Origin: Clostridiales bacterium | GTDB lineage: Bacteria; Bacillota; Clostridia; Christensenellales; Borkfalkiaceae | Direction: 5' to 3' | Assembly (NCBI GenBank): GCA_015071005.1 | Contig: SVIG01000001.1 | Location: 186,001-250,000 of the forward strand | DNA: 64,000 nucleotides | In this document: positions 12,473-47,268 of the stretch, piece after piece | Layout: the number at the start of each line of letters is the position of its first letter | How positions within the stretch are numbered: position 1 is the first letter of the stretch | Notes under the pieces: generated by a model | Database searches by the model: none | The model's input: only the letters and a program-made list of their open reading frames with translations | Told to the model about the DNA's origin: nothing | Translations under genes and position numbers: made by a program

Positions 12473-15097
12473 TTATGCAACGTAGGAAATAACCCAATTG
12501 TCCTTGGTCGTAGCAGCTACGTAGAAAGAAAATTCTTCTCCTTCTGCAAGCGTAACGGAGAACGTATCGCCATTTTCGTTTGCGTAATAGTCAATGAAAG
12601 GATTGCTGTTCCAATCAGTTTCATAAGCTTCAGCTTCCCAAACGCCAACCCCTGCAGGAACGGTGAAGGTATACGTGCCAGCTTTTTCTGCCGTGAAAGT
12701 GTATTTGTCAACCCAACAATTGTTATCCGTCGTGGTTACGTTGATCGTACCTTCAATACCCAAGCTTTCGCCGCCTTCTTCACCACCTTCTTCACCGCCT
12801 TCACTGCTTTCAACTACAGCGAACCAGAAGTTCATATTCATACTCGACATAGGATGAACATAGCCAATTTCCGCTGCGTTCATACCCGCATAGTAGTTAC
12901 CCGTGCCCGTAAGATTGAAGAAGTCTGCCGTTATGGATCTAACCATTTCAACCGTTATTGCACCATTCGAAGAAATCGTATAGGAAATCAACATCGAATA
13001 TTGATTATCTAATGCGTAAGGATCCGTCGAGCTGCTGATGAAAGCAAGTTTTTCTGCCTTATTTACAATAAGGTACAAGCCAGCATTTTCATCATAGTAG
13101 AGCTCACTTGCAAAATCTACTTCGGGTTCTACCGTAGGAGCGTCTACTTTTACGCAGTCTTGCATGTCAAGCTGTAAACCGTAGTTTGCCGTGATAGCAA
13201 GATAGATGTTCATTTCGTCGCCAGATACGTAGGTCCAGGAAAGACCCGTTGCTTCCGTATATTCATAGCTGAATACTGCAGACTTGTTTACAGTGGTTTG
13301 CGTGCTCCAGCTGTATTCTGCTTTGTCAACTGCTACCGTACCGCTCATCGCGCCTTCAGAAGCAGGCGTGAACGCAAGCGAAGCAACCTTGGATCCATTC
13401 CAATCGTAAACTTCATAGTAGCCGCTAAGGATATCCGCAACGGAAGGAGCTGCTTCTACCGTAATAACAAACGTATCGGTAAGCCCTTCTACAACCGTCG
13501 AAGTAACCGTAACGGTGTACGTGCCAACAACGTTGGAAACGAAAGACGTAAAGTATTCGCCTGCCGTAAGCGTAGCGTCTTCGCTATCTACCGTCATCGT
13601 ATGGCTATTATCCGTATAATCGTCGGTCGTTGCGTAGATGTCTACTTGTACGCCTGCATATACCGTAATTTCGTTTACTTGATTCATATTGCTGTTATAA
13701 GCATACGCGTTGATGTACGTAGGATCTTTCGCCGCAATTTTTACGGTAAGCGTCTTTTCCGCTGCGCCGATCTTAACGCCTACGGTGAATTCGCCTACTT
13801 GTTTCGCCGTCATAGCAATACCGTTTAACGTAGCAACATCGTTGTCGTCGTAATTGTTCGTAGCCGACAAAGCGATTCTGCTATCAAAAGATGCCCATTC
13901 AACGACTTCGCCGTTAATCGAGAATACGGGTTCGTTGAAGGAAGAAACCGCACCTTCGGATAATGCAACTTCAAAGTTTACGCTGTCGCCTGCGCGCAAT
14001 TCAAGAACTGCACCGCTTTCAACCGCTGCGCCGTCTTTGCTCATCGTGAAATCGGTCGCATATACAGATTCCGCCGAATACGCATTTTCCGTAGGCAATT
14101 CAACGCCGTCAAGTTCAACGTTTTGTTGGATAGCTACCGTGTAGGTGTTGTTAAACGTTGCTTCTTCATTTTTCACCAAAACGTCTGCCGTAGCCGCGGG
14201 AACGCCGTTTTCTTCATCCGCAAGCGTTACTTCTTTCGTTTCTACCGTATAGAAGTCAGGGGAATACTTTTCCGTGCTAACGCTAAGCATTTCAATATAA
14301 CCGTATTCAGACAACGTGAATACTACGTTCGTTTCATAAACGTAATATTCGGACATTCTGAGCGAGAACATATACATTTTTTGACCTTCAACTTCCATAG
14401 CCATTTCTTGGAAGCCGCAGTTTTCAATAACGTATTCAACGTTTGCAATCAACGTTGCGTCATTTGCAGTTTGTGCATCTTCAAGACATTGCTGATAGTA
14501 AGCATATTGTTCGCTTGCTATGTTGTAAAGATTGGAAACAAGCGCGTCAACCCCGTAATAGCTCGCATAATTACCCGTAATATCAGATACGTTGAAACCG
14601 TAACCATTCATCATGTCTTCGCTCGGTTCTTCATCATAAGGAGCTCCATTCTTTACTGCAAAAATGTCACCGTTTGCATCCAACGAGAACCAGCATTCTT
14701 TTTCTTCCGCGTATTCGTCTTCACCGGTCACTTCATTCGTGTAAACAAATTTGTCATTCAACGCATAAATAACACTCGTCGTGCTATCATACATCGACAT
14801 TTCCGGATCCGCATAAGTGGAAATGAGAGCACCTGCGCCGTGCGTTACTCTGCTTGCATAATCTTTACCGAATGCAATTGCACCTGCTACGTCGAGATCT
14901 TCGGGGATTTCCACGGGCTCGATTACTTCGCCGCCTTCGCCACCTTCGCTGCCTTCTCCTTCGCTTCCTGCGGGCGTTTCGCTCGTGATAGGATCGGAGG
15001 TGTTGTTGTCGTTGTCCTTATCCTTGCCGCCGCCACAAGCCGTGAACGCGCCAAGAACAAGCATCATAGACAATGCTAAATAGATACCTTTCTTCAT
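12473..15097 (-). CDS. Large lipoprotein with Ig-like domains, unknown function
   Basis: An 874-aa lipoprotein. The signal peptide ends in a lipobox (LGAFTACGGG), followed by a D/N/S/G/E-rich linker of about 50 residues. About 60-320 is a mixed alpha/beta region. From about 330 several bacterial Ig-like or cadherin-like beta domains follow (for example GEFTVGVKIGAAEKTLTVKI, VVGTYTVTVTSTVVEGLTDT). Near the C terminus an E/G-rich hinge (GGEEGGEEGGES) leads to a final pre-peptidase-like beta domain (YTFTAEKAGTYTFTVPAG). A strong AGGAGG precedes the ATG. It lies downstream of the hairpin array and has its own terminator. No enzymatic motif is seen; adhesion or ligand binding outside the cell is inferred. 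Confidence 0.8.
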   Translation of the reverse strand: MKKGIYLALSMMLVLGAFTACGGGKDKDNDNNTSDPITSETPAGSEGEGSEGGEGGEVIEPVEIPEDLDVAGAIAFGKDYASRVTHGAGALISTYADPEMSMYDSTTSVIYALNDKFVYTNEVTGEDEYAEEKECWFSLDANGDIFAVKNGAPYDEEPSEDMMNGYGFNVSDITGNYASYYGVDALVSNLYNIASEQYAYYQQCLEDAQTANDATLIANVEYVIENCGFQEMAMEVEGQKMYMFSLRMSEYYVYETNVVFTLSEYGYIEMLSVSTEKYSPDFYTVETKEVTLADEENGVPAATADVLVKNEEATFNNTYTVAIQQNVELDGVELPTENAYSAESVYATDFTMSKDGAAVESGAVLELRAGDSVNFEVALSEGAVSSFNEPVFSINGEVVEWASFDSRIALSATNNYDDNDVATLNGIAMTAKQVGEFTVGVKIGAAEKTLTVKIAAKDPTYINAYAYNSNMNQVNEITVYAGVQVDIYATTDDYTDNSHTMTVDSEDATLTAGEYFTSFVSNVVGTYTVTVTSTVVEGLTDTFVITVEAAPSVADILSGYYEVYDWNGSKVASLAFTPASEGAMSGTVAVDKAEYSWSTQTTVNKSAVFSYEYTEATGLSWTYVSGDEMNIYLAITANYGLQLDMQDCVKVDAPTVEPEVDFASELYYDENAGLYLIVNKAEKLAFISSSTDPYALDNQYSMLISYTISSNGAITVEMVRSITADFFNLTGTGNYYAGMNAAEIGYVHPMSSMNMNFWFAVVESSEGGEEGGEEGGESLGIEGTINVTTTDNNCWVDKYTFTAEKAGTYTFTVPAGVGVWEAEAYETDWNSNPFIDYYANENGDTFSVTLAEGEEFSFYVAATTKDNWVISYVA

Positions 15098-15172
15098 AAA
15101 TAAGCCTCCTTTTGCTTAATTTAATGTTTTTTTATTAAGATAAACCCTTTCGGGATTGTCTTTGGTAGGATA

Positions 15173-15427
15173 CATTGAAAAGCTTTGCTTTTCGTGAATT
15201 GCATTTCTGTGCAATGCGTGAATTGGCTATCGCCGTGAATTGAACGCTTCGCGTTCGTGAATTGCAAGGCTATGCCTTGCGTTATGGAATTATTTATATA
15301 TTTTTCCGCAACGAATTGCTTTTGGGAAAAGCAATTCAATTCACGCGCCGTTAGGCGCAATTCACGCCGACTTCGTCGGCAATTCACGTTCGCAGAACAA
15401 TTCACGTTTTCGTCAGAAACAATTCAC
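15173..15427 (-). repeat. Array of small hairpins joined by a conserved GTGAATTG octamer, in two inverted halves
   Basis: On the plus strand GTGAATTG occurs at 15194, 15218, 15235 and 15257. The reverse complement CAATTCAC occurs at 15337, 15358, 15380, 15398 and 15420. Between the octamers lie short spacers, each a different palindrome using the octamer's outer G or C: GAAAAGC-TTT-GCTTTTC, GCATT...AATGC, GGC-TATC-GCC, GAACGC-TTC-GCGTTC, GCAAGGC-TAT-GCCTTGC, GCGCC-GTTA-GGCGC, GCCGAC-TTC-GTCGGC, GTTC-GCA-GAAC and GTTTT-CGTCA-GAAAC. The centre holds an 11-bp hairpin, GAATTGCTTTT-GGG-AAAAGCAATTC. The spacer arms differ but always pair, so base pairing rather than sequence is conserved. It begins at the stop codon of the upstream minus-strand gene. 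Confidence 0.92.
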
Positions 15428-17263
15428 TTACAAATAATACAAACAGCCAAACAGCCATTGATCGGCTTCCGCACAATCAATCGTGGGAGAAAGATAGGTT
15501 TCCGCCCAACCGTTGCCGTCCATAAAATACCGTTGCGAAATCGCAAACTGCTGCAAGAAAATCTGCAGCTCCTTGGTCACGGGGAATACACCGTCCCCCA
15601 TTGCTACGTCCGCATAACCGAACGTTTGGAATAATTCTTCGGGACAGTTCAAGCAGTCCTTCGTACAAGTCGCGCAGTCTGCAATACATACGCCGCTTTG
15701 TATAGTTTGACCGGGATTCGCCGCCGATCCAAAAGGCGCCCCTACTTGCGCATGTTCACAAGTACAGCTATCCGAGCAGAAATACGAGAACCCTGACGCA
15801 CCGTTCAGAACGCTCCTATACCCTTCCAAGAAAAGCTTGTGGTTGCGGAGCTTGATATTGCCGTTCTCGTCTTTTACCGCAACGGACAACGCCTTATTCC
15901 CTGCCGATTCAATCAGGGTAAGGGGCCAATTCCCCGGACCTTGATATTCGGGAATGAAACGATTATTCATCGTAATCGTCGCATACAAGATCGGGCCGAA
16001 GCCGTCCGTCGTCGCATACTTAATCTCGTCGTAAAGATGATAGAATCCGTCGCCATTTGCGTATTTATCGGGATCGTAATACTTAAACATCGAGCCGTCG
16101 AAATAAGTAACGCCCTTGCTGTTGGTCACTTCGGGATAATGCATCGTACCGCTCGGCGTGTACTGCCCTAAAATATAACGCAAAATAGCCGAACCGCTAA
16201 ACATTCTATACGGCGTATGCAAATCTTTCAGCTGACCGTCCGTAAGATCTTGCAAAGTCGTCCAATCCATACTCGACAAGCCCGTCACCGACGTAAACGT
16301 GTCCATCGGCATGGAACGCAGCTCGCTAATTTCTTTAAGCAGCATTTCGTTCAGCTCGGTCGCTGCAATCAATTCCGTAGGATAGGTATCGTACGAGAAG
16401 GGCGCTTTGTAGCTGATTTGGAAACGCACCTTCACGGGATAATTCCCGTCGATTTCTTCCGCGCGGATCGCAAAAACAAATACTACCTGCCCATTTCCGT
16501 CTTCCGCGAAGTTGCTTTCGTCCATGTTAATTGCGTAAGAGAAGTTCTTGGTGAACGTACCGCTTGCGCCGCCGTCGTTGACCGTGAAAAACTCTTTACG
16601 CAAAACGTAGCTTTCGAACATTTCCATTTTAGGATTTACTTTGTCCGTATTGACGTCTACCCACGATTCAATCGTGTAAGTACCCGGTTTATTTGGCGCG
16701 TATAAGCAGTAAACCTTATCGTTCTTATTCTCAATTTCCACTTCGTAAACGCCTGCCTGCGAGACTTCGCGAGGCGACCAAGCGTCCTTACCTTCGCCGC
16801 CCGTGAATCGGCCTATACGGAAAAGGGTAATTTCAATGTCACGGTTTCCGTTCGTCGTTTTTGTCTTGTTGGTGTTATAAACGTAGTTAAATTTCGAAAC
16901 GTTTTCTTTGGGTACTTCCAAGGAAACCTGATAGTTCCCGTCCAAGCCCGTCACGCTCGCATAGCCGCTTTCATCAAACGGCGCTCTATGCACTTCTGCA
17001 ATCCCGTCCGTGCGCGTCCATTGCGCCACTACGCCGTACTTTTCCGCGGTCGTGAGCGGTTTTCCGTTGAACATCAACGTGACGGAGAAGGTTCTTTGAA
17101 TGGTTTCGCCACCTTCGCTCGTTTCACCGCCGCCGCTCGAGCTTTCCGAGCTTATGCCGCTTTGGTCGTTGGAAATACCCTTGTACTCCCCGCAACCGCC
17201 AAGCGCAAATATCATAAAGGTCATCAAGAACAGGAGTATATTCAAAAAGATTTTTTTGACCAT
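15428..17263 (-). CDS. Lipoprotein with Cys-rich C-terminal segment, last gene of the MoxR/VWA operon
   Basis: A 611-aa lipoprotein with a clear lipobox (FALGGCGEYKG), then a Ser/Gly/Glu linker. About 60-300 contains beta domains (one carboxypeptidase-regulatory-like, FSVTLMFNGKPLTTAEKYGV, and a pre-peptidase-like domain). About 310-480 is mostly unclassified. Near residues 505-560 lies a dense cysteine cluster (CSDSCTCEH, then CIADCATCTKDCLNCPEE). Its start is 3 bp after the VWA protein's stop, so it belongs to the operon and is probably the external partner or substrate of the VWA membrane proteins. The cysteines could bind metal or form disulfides. Function unknown. Confidence 0.78.
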   Translation of the reverse strand: MVKKIFLNILLFLMTFMIFALGGCGEYKGISNDQSGISSESSSGGGETSEGGETIQRTFSVTLMFNGKPLTTAEKYGVVAQWTRTDGIAEVHRAPFDESGYASVTGLDGNYQVSLEVPKENVSKFNYVYNTNKTKTTNGNRDIEITLFRIGRFTGGEGKDAWSPREVSQAGVYEVEIENKNDKVYCLYAPNKPGTYTIESWVDVNTDKVNPKMEMFESYVLRKEFFTVNDGGASGTFTKNFSYAINMDESNFAEDGNGQVVFVFAIRAEEIDGNYPVKVRFQISYKAPFSYDTYPTELIAATELNEMLLKEISELRSMPMDTFTSVTGLSSMDWTTLQDLTDGQLKDLHTPYRMFSGSAILRYILGQYTPSGTMHYPEVTNSKGVTYFDGSMFKYYDPDKYANGDGFYHLYDEIKYATTDGFGPILYATITMNNRFIPEYQGPGNWPLTLIESAGNKALSVAVKDENGNIKLRNHKLFLEGYRSVLNGASGFSYFCSDSCTCEHAQVGAPFGSAANPGQTIQSGVCIADCATCTKDCLNCPEELFQTFGYADVAMGDGVFPVTKELQIFLQQFAISQRYFMDGNGWAETYLSPTIDCAEADQWLFGCLYYL

Positions 17264-46954: not shown

Positions 46955-47268
46955 TTATTGTTCAATCGTTTCCTTTTTGTTCGTATTTGTCACTTCACTT
47001 CCCCGAACTTGGGTACGCATTCTTCCGAGCATGCATTTGCTCTCATAGGAATTTCACCTCCGCGCGGTTCTCGCCCAGGCGCCCTCATTGGTTGCGACGG
47101 CTCACGGTTTTCACCGCTTCAACGCTCGACCTGTGACTGGACGCAAGTATCATTATGCCCTCTGCCTATCTTGGCCTTCAATACGGATTGCGCCGTACCG
47201 TCTGAGTCTTGGAAAAATGTCCGCTCACGTGGCTTGCCGTTTTTACGACGGCAGAAGGAAAGTAAAAG
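46955..47268 (-). ncRNA. Candidate structured RNA with embedded micro-ORF
   Basis: About 310 bases between a promoter (-10 TATACT, 47275-47280) and a terminator, without a normal gene on either strand. The minus-strand RNA shows many local hairpins: GCCGT...ACGGC, TACGG-CGCAAT-CCGTA, CGGT-GAAA-ACCG (a GNRA loop), CCC...GGG and GAGC...GCTC. The segment GCGCGGAGGTGAAATTCCTA leads into an 18-codon ORF. The base composition is richer in G and C than the AT-rich neighbours. I do not recognise the family; a search of structured-RNA models is the test. Confidence 0.6.
46990..47046 (-). CDS. 18-codon micro-ORF inside the structured RNA
   Basis: ATG at 47046 with GGAGGTGAAATTCCT before it; the product is MRANACSEECVPKFGEVK. 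It has two cysteines spaced by three residues. The ribosome site may itself be part of a hairpin, so the ORF could be a regulated leader peptide, a small protein, or a chance reading of conserved RNA. Confidence 0.45.
   Translation of the reverse strand: MRANACSEECVPKFGEVK

Follow-up and report, generated by a model that had tools for sequence, protein, structure and literature searches.

Short sequence units that are repeated together with hairpins or with inverted ends are known from several kinds of elements. REP/REPIN sequences with their RAYT proteins combine a short tag with a hairpin in inverted arrangement, MITEs and other internally deleted non-autonomous elements are short and non-coding, have inverted ends like those of a coding relative and occur in many copies, and the heptanucleotide tandem repeats of cyanobacteria (STRR) form arrays of 7-nt units with no hairpins between the units. 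Closest to the array described here are the Gut-1 RNA of Rfam (RF01706) and the intervening sequences (IVSs) of 23S rRNA genes with their S23/IVP reading frame. Gut-1 consists of three hairpins joined by GUGAAAU, and it is rated as certainly an RNA, as not cis-regulatory and as occurring only in the human gut in the passages that deal with it in Weinberg et al. 2010 (PMC2864571). The IVSs known so far are situated within 23S rRNA, from which RNase III excises them, their inverted ends fold back, they are thought to be selfish, and the IVP protein forms a pentamer; as stated in the relevant passages of the same 2016 source (PMC4990558), even 25 years after the IVSs had been discovered it was not clear what they and the S23/IVP protein do and where they come from.

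The window, which is the whole 64-kb stretch of DNA that was analysed, contains an array of nine exact copies of the octamer GTGAATTG, four in forward and five in inverted orientation, as described in the original prediction. The octamer occurs 13 times in the window, with 2.7 occurrences expected, and 0 of 100 shuffled sequences reached this total. The array probably arose by internal deletion from a selfish element and represents a non-coding copy of it; in the intact form, an IVP/S23 gene lies between inverted arrays of linkers and hairpins. The anatomy of the window copy is given in Table 1. The 11-bp hairpin that had been described at its centre is present, and a hairpin with a degenerate octamer, recognized by eye, extends the left side to give five plus five linkers (about 15170-15427). 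That every spacer is a palindrome holds for most of them, but one window spacer is imperfect (CATTTC-TGT-GCAATG, by eye). The right end adjoins the TAA (15428-15430) of the 611-aa reading frame, which itself follows genes for MoxR, DUF58, BatA and VWA proteins, so that the described start directly behind the MoxR/VWA operon is correct.

Table 1. Features of the linker-hairpin element in the window and of the adjoining genes
Feature	Position	Strand	Basis or remark
Whole element	15170..15427	- (IVP-sense orientation, as upstream gene)	orientation from copy L030
Outermost octamer, degenerate, ATACATTG	15170..15177	+	by eye
Leftmost hairpin GAAAAGC-TTT-GCTTTTC	15177..15193	+	by eye
Octamer linker	15194..15201	+	exact GTGAATTG search
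Octamer linker	15218..15225	+	exact GTGAATTG search
Octamer linker	15235..15242	+	exact GTGAATTG search
Octamer linker	15257..15264	+	exact GTGAATTG search
Core-adjoining hairpin GCAAGGC-TAT-GCCTTGC; homologues in other copies with compensatory changes	15264..15280	+	
34-nt core, CGTTGCGGAAAAATATATAAATAATTCCATAACG on the - strand; read as remnant of a deleted IVP gene	15280..15313	-	
11-bp central hairpin GAATTGCTTTT-GGG-AAAAGCAATTC (arms 15313-15323/15327-15337)	15313..15337	.	inverted-repeat search
Octamer linker	15337..15344	-	exact GTGAATTG search
Octamer linker	15358..15365	-	exact GTGAATTG search
Octamer linker	15380..15387	-	exact GTGAATTG search
Octamer linker	15398..15405	-	exact GTGAATTG search
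Rightmost octamer, abuts TAA stop of upstream gene	15420..15427	-	exact GTGAATTG search
Match to whole Rfam Gut-1 model, below cut-off (24.1 bits, gathering score 50)	15333..15407	-	
Upstream gene: 611-aa lipoprotein-like ORF, no Pfam family	15428..17263	-	lipoprotein likeness by eye
Downstream gene: 874-aa lipoprotein-like ORF, no Pfam family	12473..15097	-	lipoprotein likeness by eye

The array is not a CRISPR, as had already been stated, since the repeats of a CRISPR are direct and its spacers are unrelated to one another and nearly constant in length, whereas this array is inverted and has mostly palindromic spacers of 8-16 nt. It is also not a simple terminator: terminator-like sites are absent from the element, and the region 15050-15550 contains one outside the element (0.7 expected by chance) together with one promoter-like site (15410-15438, + strand; 1.2 expected), which is near chance and led to the rejection of a promoter or terminator role for the host. 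Like an IVS, the element has inverted ends that can form a long stem, and its coding relatives encode the same protein family, but it lies behind the stop codon of a protein gene and not inside a 23S rRNA gene, the window copy has no reading frame, the arms are repeat arrays, and elements of this kind are found behind protein and tRNA genes and can be numerous in one genome. With MITEs the family has in common that it is short, non-coding and present in many copies, with inverted ends that it shares with a coding relative, yet this relative encodes IVP and no transposase, and the target-site duplication of DDE transposons is missing: none of at least 4 bp was found in the 16 of 23 copies that were examined, two of which have an imprecise end.

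The original prediction had named an array occurring only once as a finding that would speak against it, and this is not what was observed. In the genome of the window, the pattern GTGAATTG-N6-30-GTGAATTG gave 42 + 50 matches, which group into 23 elements, and the same pattern read backwards, used as a control, gave none. A 67-nt core query detected 22 near-full copies in this genome with 85-100% identity (window copy 90%). In the usual copy, an AT-rich core of about 34 nt is preceded by one set of linkers and hairpins and followed by an inverted set, and a few of the 23 copies are shortened on one side. Among 61 genomes (the own genome, 36 of the same genus and 24 of the order), the pattern was found in 15 and the backward control in none, and the array counts within one genus range from none to dozens. 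A scan of named genomes gave at least 111 stretches, mostly, to judge by title, in Clostridia MAGs from gut and rumen. Carriage by phages was considered and dropped, as the only two matches in a viral contig set were other repeats by eye. One 3.9-kb contig (L094) carries three array pieces spaced by about 1.3 kb, and in another locus (L029, 3983-4209) a T-box leader barely above its cut-off (93.9 vs 93 bits) is separated from one array copy by about 90 bp.

The octamers are conserved and the hairpins between them are not. The spacers in the window's genome number 92, of which 61 are distinct, and 76 of the 92 can form a stem of 4 or more pairs, compared to 13% of shuffled spacers; in the Clostridia loci among the matches listed, such stems are found in 268 of 373 spacers. 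Twelve loci from other phyla were left out of this count (L044, L058, L065, L069, L074, L096, L098, L118, L119, L122, L126 and L147) and are rejected as family members, as by eye they are tandem or other repeats without hairpins. Between copies in the window's genome, different palindromes occupy one and the same place, and in sister species the octamer is identical with largely different palindromes. The compensatory change that had been proposed is seen in the core-adjoining hairpin, which could be compared in 18 of the 23 copies (the rest could not be parsed with the modal length; 13 distinct sequences): 77 of 78 cells are paired, and of the six pairs tested, pairs 3, 4 and 5 are changed on both sides (8 cells), although the control for this hairpin alone is weak, with re-dealt right arms giving a mean of 68 and a maximum of also 77.

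The relation to IVP is seen in copies that have a longer interior. In two loci, opposed arms enclose about 420 bp, and the interior of L095 encodes a protein of 117 aa which belongs to Pfam PF05635, the 23S rRNA-intervening sequence proteins (E 2.1e-26). Its AlphaFold model (pLDDT 96) has its best Foldseek match in 2rld of the S23 family (E 8e-9), followed by 2gsc. The protein Avd of diversity-generating retroelements (4dwl/8ube and DGR ribonucleoprotein entries of 2024) is matched with TM values of about 0.7-0.8, but with E-values of about 0.05 or worse, and this resemblance is weak by E-value, as an unrelated helical protein ranks alongside. IVP reading frames inside GTGAATTG arms are found in L095 (same place as L178), L144 (same place as L177) and L234, and in L175 such a frame lies between mostly degenerate octamer arms. 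L178 belongs to a 'Clostridia bacterium' MAG (G028) in the genus of the window. In the window's own genome, which is 93.9% complete, no PF05635 gene was found at E 0.001, so that an IVP gene accompanies these arms in copies of sister species and not in the window's genome; missing contigs or the loss of a master copy could explain arrays without the gene there and the missing co-variation of arrays and IVP genes in the genus described below.

L175, L177 and L178 sit between glnS and a gene that we take from its C-terminus to be that of FTHFS, and by eye L234 adjoins the same FTHFS end. For this site, 30 loci were taken from the 60 genomes with a match, and 28 could be parsed. The gap is 577-629 bp long and contains the IVP element in three of them (G028, G006 and G030), and it has 25-56 bp without any exact octamer in nine. 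It measures 54 bp in the window's genome (G000), with a one-unit relic (hairpin + CAATTCAC), 39 bp with a single octamer in G035, and 145 bp with a partial arm in G009, and the other 13 genomes have unclassified spacers of 80-417 bp. The presence and absence of the element among these genomes indicate that gain or loss has taken place at an orthologous site. The relic is located just above position 129934 of G000:C2 with glnS upstream (L263).

The cores of the gene-less copies were compared with the four coding copies, using eight cores of the window's genome, the window's own included, on the IVP-sense strand, with 2000 shuffles. The match is 15/15 bases with L178 (0/2000 shuffles as good; score 30, best shuffle 29), 22/24 bases with L175 (0/2000) and 24/30 bases with L234 (4/2000), and there is no match with L177 (146/2000 shuffles as good). 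The matched part of the coding copies is the 3' end of the element, and in L178 and L175 the common stretch takes in the IVP stop codon. The best-matching cores are those of L034 and L022, and the core of the window differs from that of L034 at three places. The window family thus shares its octamer arms with the coding copies and lacks the gene, and its core is common to three of the four coding copies, in one case narrowly, and not to the fourth. As far as can be judged from sequence, the family is best understood as non-autonomous copies of an IVP element with an internal deletion. The mobile element is the best supported of the three roles that had been offered for the array (RNA element, non-autonomous mobile element, protein-binding array); a protein-binding array may still be the mechanism of such an element.

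Repeat arrays next to IVP genes are not limited to this octamer. PF05635 was found in 17 of the 61 relatives and, across the order, in 38 of 151 genomes. Among 51 IVP loci (the weak matches L188 and L198 were left out), a 7-mer occurs at least five times within 450 bp of the IVP frame in 37, compared to 4 of 51 in distal windows; the windows comprised at least 700 bp in 48 of 51 loci near the frame and in 38 of 51 distally, with means of 866 and 786 bp, and 14 of the 51 loci have no 7-mer repeated five times. With a strict detector, which demands chained linker-hairpin-linker units, 31 arrays were found in 39.5 kb near IVP frames (23/51 loci) and one in 114.8 kb elsewhere; shuffled flanks gave arrays in none of 51 loci, and the detector misses 28 of the 51 real loci. 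Under two other settings of the detector, arrays were found in 20 and 22 of the 51 loci; the near arrays then numbered 27 and 28 and the distal ones 3 and 2. The linkers vary (GTTATAT, ATGAAAT, GAAATCC, GCGATAT, AGTGAAG, ATCATCA, GTGATGT and others, partly by eye), and they do so together with the protein: pairs of loci from different host families that have a 7-mer in common (17 of 568 pairs) show a mean IVP identity of 0.70, compared to 0.45 for the other pairs, which was reached in 0 of 5000 permutations, and distal 7-mers from the same 51 loci show no such relation. This indicates that linker and protein travel together. No published link between IVP genes and repeat arrays was found, an absence that weighs little as the literature search covered subscription journals poorly.

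Repeated 7-mers also lie near IVP genes in more distant bacteria. Seventeen further genomes were examined, 12 of which belong to other groups (among them cyanobacteria, Bacteroidota and a planctomycete). IVP genes are present in 13 of the 17, and 30 loci from them have a repeated 7-mer nearby in 22 cases and distally in 4. Two Tychonema loci and one of Oscillatoriaceae contain STRR-like 7-nt tandem arrays without hairpins, inverted on either side of the IVP frame. Within the order, L207 resembles these inverted arrays, and L206 has both orientations on each side. In a genome of the Rikenellaceae (G187), ATTCACA heptamer arrays lie beside an IVP gene (L235) and at L044, which is a possible hairpin-less parallel of the window case. 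A reverse transcriptase was considered as obligate partner of IVP and rejected, as RVT_1 is present in only 13 of the 38 genomes with IVP (17 of the 113 others; a weak association, p 0.017), and none was found in the window's genome. Two weak PF05635 matches that are located beside RVT_1 (G107:C47:81727-83178 and G165:C83:2453-3932) are probably Avd genes of diversity-generating retroelements.

Gut-1 has the same architecture as the window array, with hairpins and a repeated G-UGAA-rich linker, but the linker is GUGAAAU in Gut-1 and GUGAAUUG in the array. Its model aligns over the full length with 24.1 bits in the window and at best 25.1 bits in the genome, below the gathering score of 50, so the array resembles a described family without belonging to it by score. 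A match to a described repeat family, the other finding that the original prediction had named against itself, thus applies in part, and the statement that the array is no known REP/REPIN stands as regards a RAYT of its own, with this described likeness to be added. The Rfam entry describes only one arm, as an sRNA, whereas the window element has an inverted second arm. In the 151 genomes of the order, Gut-1 matches 37 at E 0.001, 26 of them above the cut-off, with up to 30 matches each, and like the window family some copies form opposed pairs: at least 8 pairs spaced by 20-330 bp are among the matches listed, and in 9 of 20 Gut-1 loci examined, TGAAAT is present two or more times on either strand near the match, a strict test that the other 11 fail. 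In 12 of the 40 IVP loci scanned (of 51), Gut-1 is found at E <=0.1, always within 250 bp of the frame and in two cases above the cut-off. Genomes with Gut-1 and with IVP largely coincide (30 common of 37 and 38, n=151, p 8e-18), also when counted by genus (22 common of 26 and 28, n=92, p 4e-12), both without correction for the tree, and Gut-1 shows no association with RVT_1 in the 151 genomes (9 common, p 0.48). The Gut-1 'noncoding RNA' thus appears to be a single arm of an element of this kind.

The view that follows from the Rfam entry would be that such arrays are structured noncoding RNAs that act in trans or in cis and are kept for a host function, for example the protection of mRNA 3' ends. 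In line with this, the - strand of the window element folds as RNA with -106.5 kcal/mol (z -8.75; 0/200 shuffles as good), the hairpins show compensatory changes, the rating of Gut-1 as an RNA is firm, and the copies lie just behind stop codons. According to codon-scored gene calls, 22 of the 23 copies face the 3' end of a gene, with an edge-to-stop distance of -26 to 118 nt (median about 12), and in 17 of these 22 the IVP-sense orientation agrees with that of the faced gene (p 0.017). However, the DNA fold is equally far from its shuffles (z -8.73; 0/200 as good), the copy number varies from none to dozens within one genus, the hairpins differ among species, and Gut-1 co-occurs with IVP genes, to which the arrays are adjacent; a retained host RNA is therefore unlikely. 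An RNA element that connects two envelope transcripts, as had been envisaged for the window, finds no support, as the 23 copies adjoin many different genes by eye. A REPIN- or BIME-like repeat, for which a RAYT-like Y1 transposase would recognize a short tag and a hairpin in single-stranded DNA and move the repeat, would account for the conserved tag followed by a variable hairpin, for the inverted arrangement and for the lack of target-site duplications, but Y1_Tnp is absent from the window's genome, and in the 151 genomes it is associated neither with Gut-1 (12 common of 37 and 56, p 0.56) nor with IVP (13 common of 38 and 56, p 0.7). As the family also differs from REPINs in its four or five units per arm and its eight-base linker, this reading was rejected and is highly improbable.

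It could also be that IVP genes and arrays are separate and both pile up at tolerant 3' ends of tRNA and protein genes, with a third machinery spreading the arrays. The two indeed differ in their neighbours, as a tRNA or tmRNA lies upstream on the same strand in 17 of 51 IVP loci (two more have a tRNA elsewhere), compared to a tRNA in none of 18 stretches of the window's genome. Furthermore, this genome has arrays without IVP, and exact GTGAATTG arrays are unrelated to the presence of any IVP gene within the genus (4 common of 13 and 13, 37 genomes, p 0.73), which leaves a present dependence of the arrays on IVP unsupported there. Against separate origins, IVP lies inside the arms in L177, L178 and L234, the motif follows IVP similarity across host families, and inverted heptamer arrays flank the IVP frame in the three cyanobacterial loci, which renders separate origins still somewhat less likely than a retained host RNA. 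That the window array is a relative of IVP elements thus remains the probable explanation. The positions behind genes, together with the classical IVS site in 23S rRNA, suggest an insertion, or a survival, behind transcript ends, and selection against harm could produce the same positional picture. In L028 and L029 (about 2017-2257), an array copy follows directly after the stop codon of a 552-aa frame, in opposite orientations, and these are perhaps independent insertions behind paralogues.

An intact element would consist of one gene for the four-helix-bundle protein IVP/S23, flanked by two inverted arrays of linkers and hairpins. Transcription from the gene in front may read through the element, the linkers and hairpins of one strand would then fold into a rod, and IVP pentamers may attach to the series of linker-hairpin units, either in RNA or in single-stranded DNA; binding by the RNA route has somewhat less than an even chance of being correct. 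The complex of IVP and array would be copied into new sites behind other genes, and gene-less copies such as that of the window would be served in trans or be dead by now. Mobility and IVP binding are here proposed on the basis of the sequence comparisons. If linker and protein belong together in this way, IVP has a candidate substrate in its linker-hairpin arrays, a specificity that can be tested, in which every IVP goes with a linker of its own, and a place outside rRNA, and it is suggested that a family filed as sRNA in Rfam is one arm of a selfish element. Avd-like proteins would also become accessible to experiment in genomes in which a reverse transcriptase is not obligate. More tentatively, and rather doubtful as a whole, IVP/S23 may mark a separate class of prokaryotic mobile elements with one gene, inverted arrays of 7-8-nt linkers with or without hairpins, an Avd-like pentamer that recognizes the linker of its own element within structured RNA and drives insertions downstream of transcript ends, and gene-less satellites; Gut-1, the IVSs of 23S rRNA and the heptamer arrays that border on IVP genes in cyanobacteria and in further phyla would then be parts or forms of it.

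Elsewhere in the window, two Rfam families were found above their cut-offs, a glycine riboswitch at 375-470 (58.5 bits) and a pemK RNA at 47043-47156 (67.5 bits).
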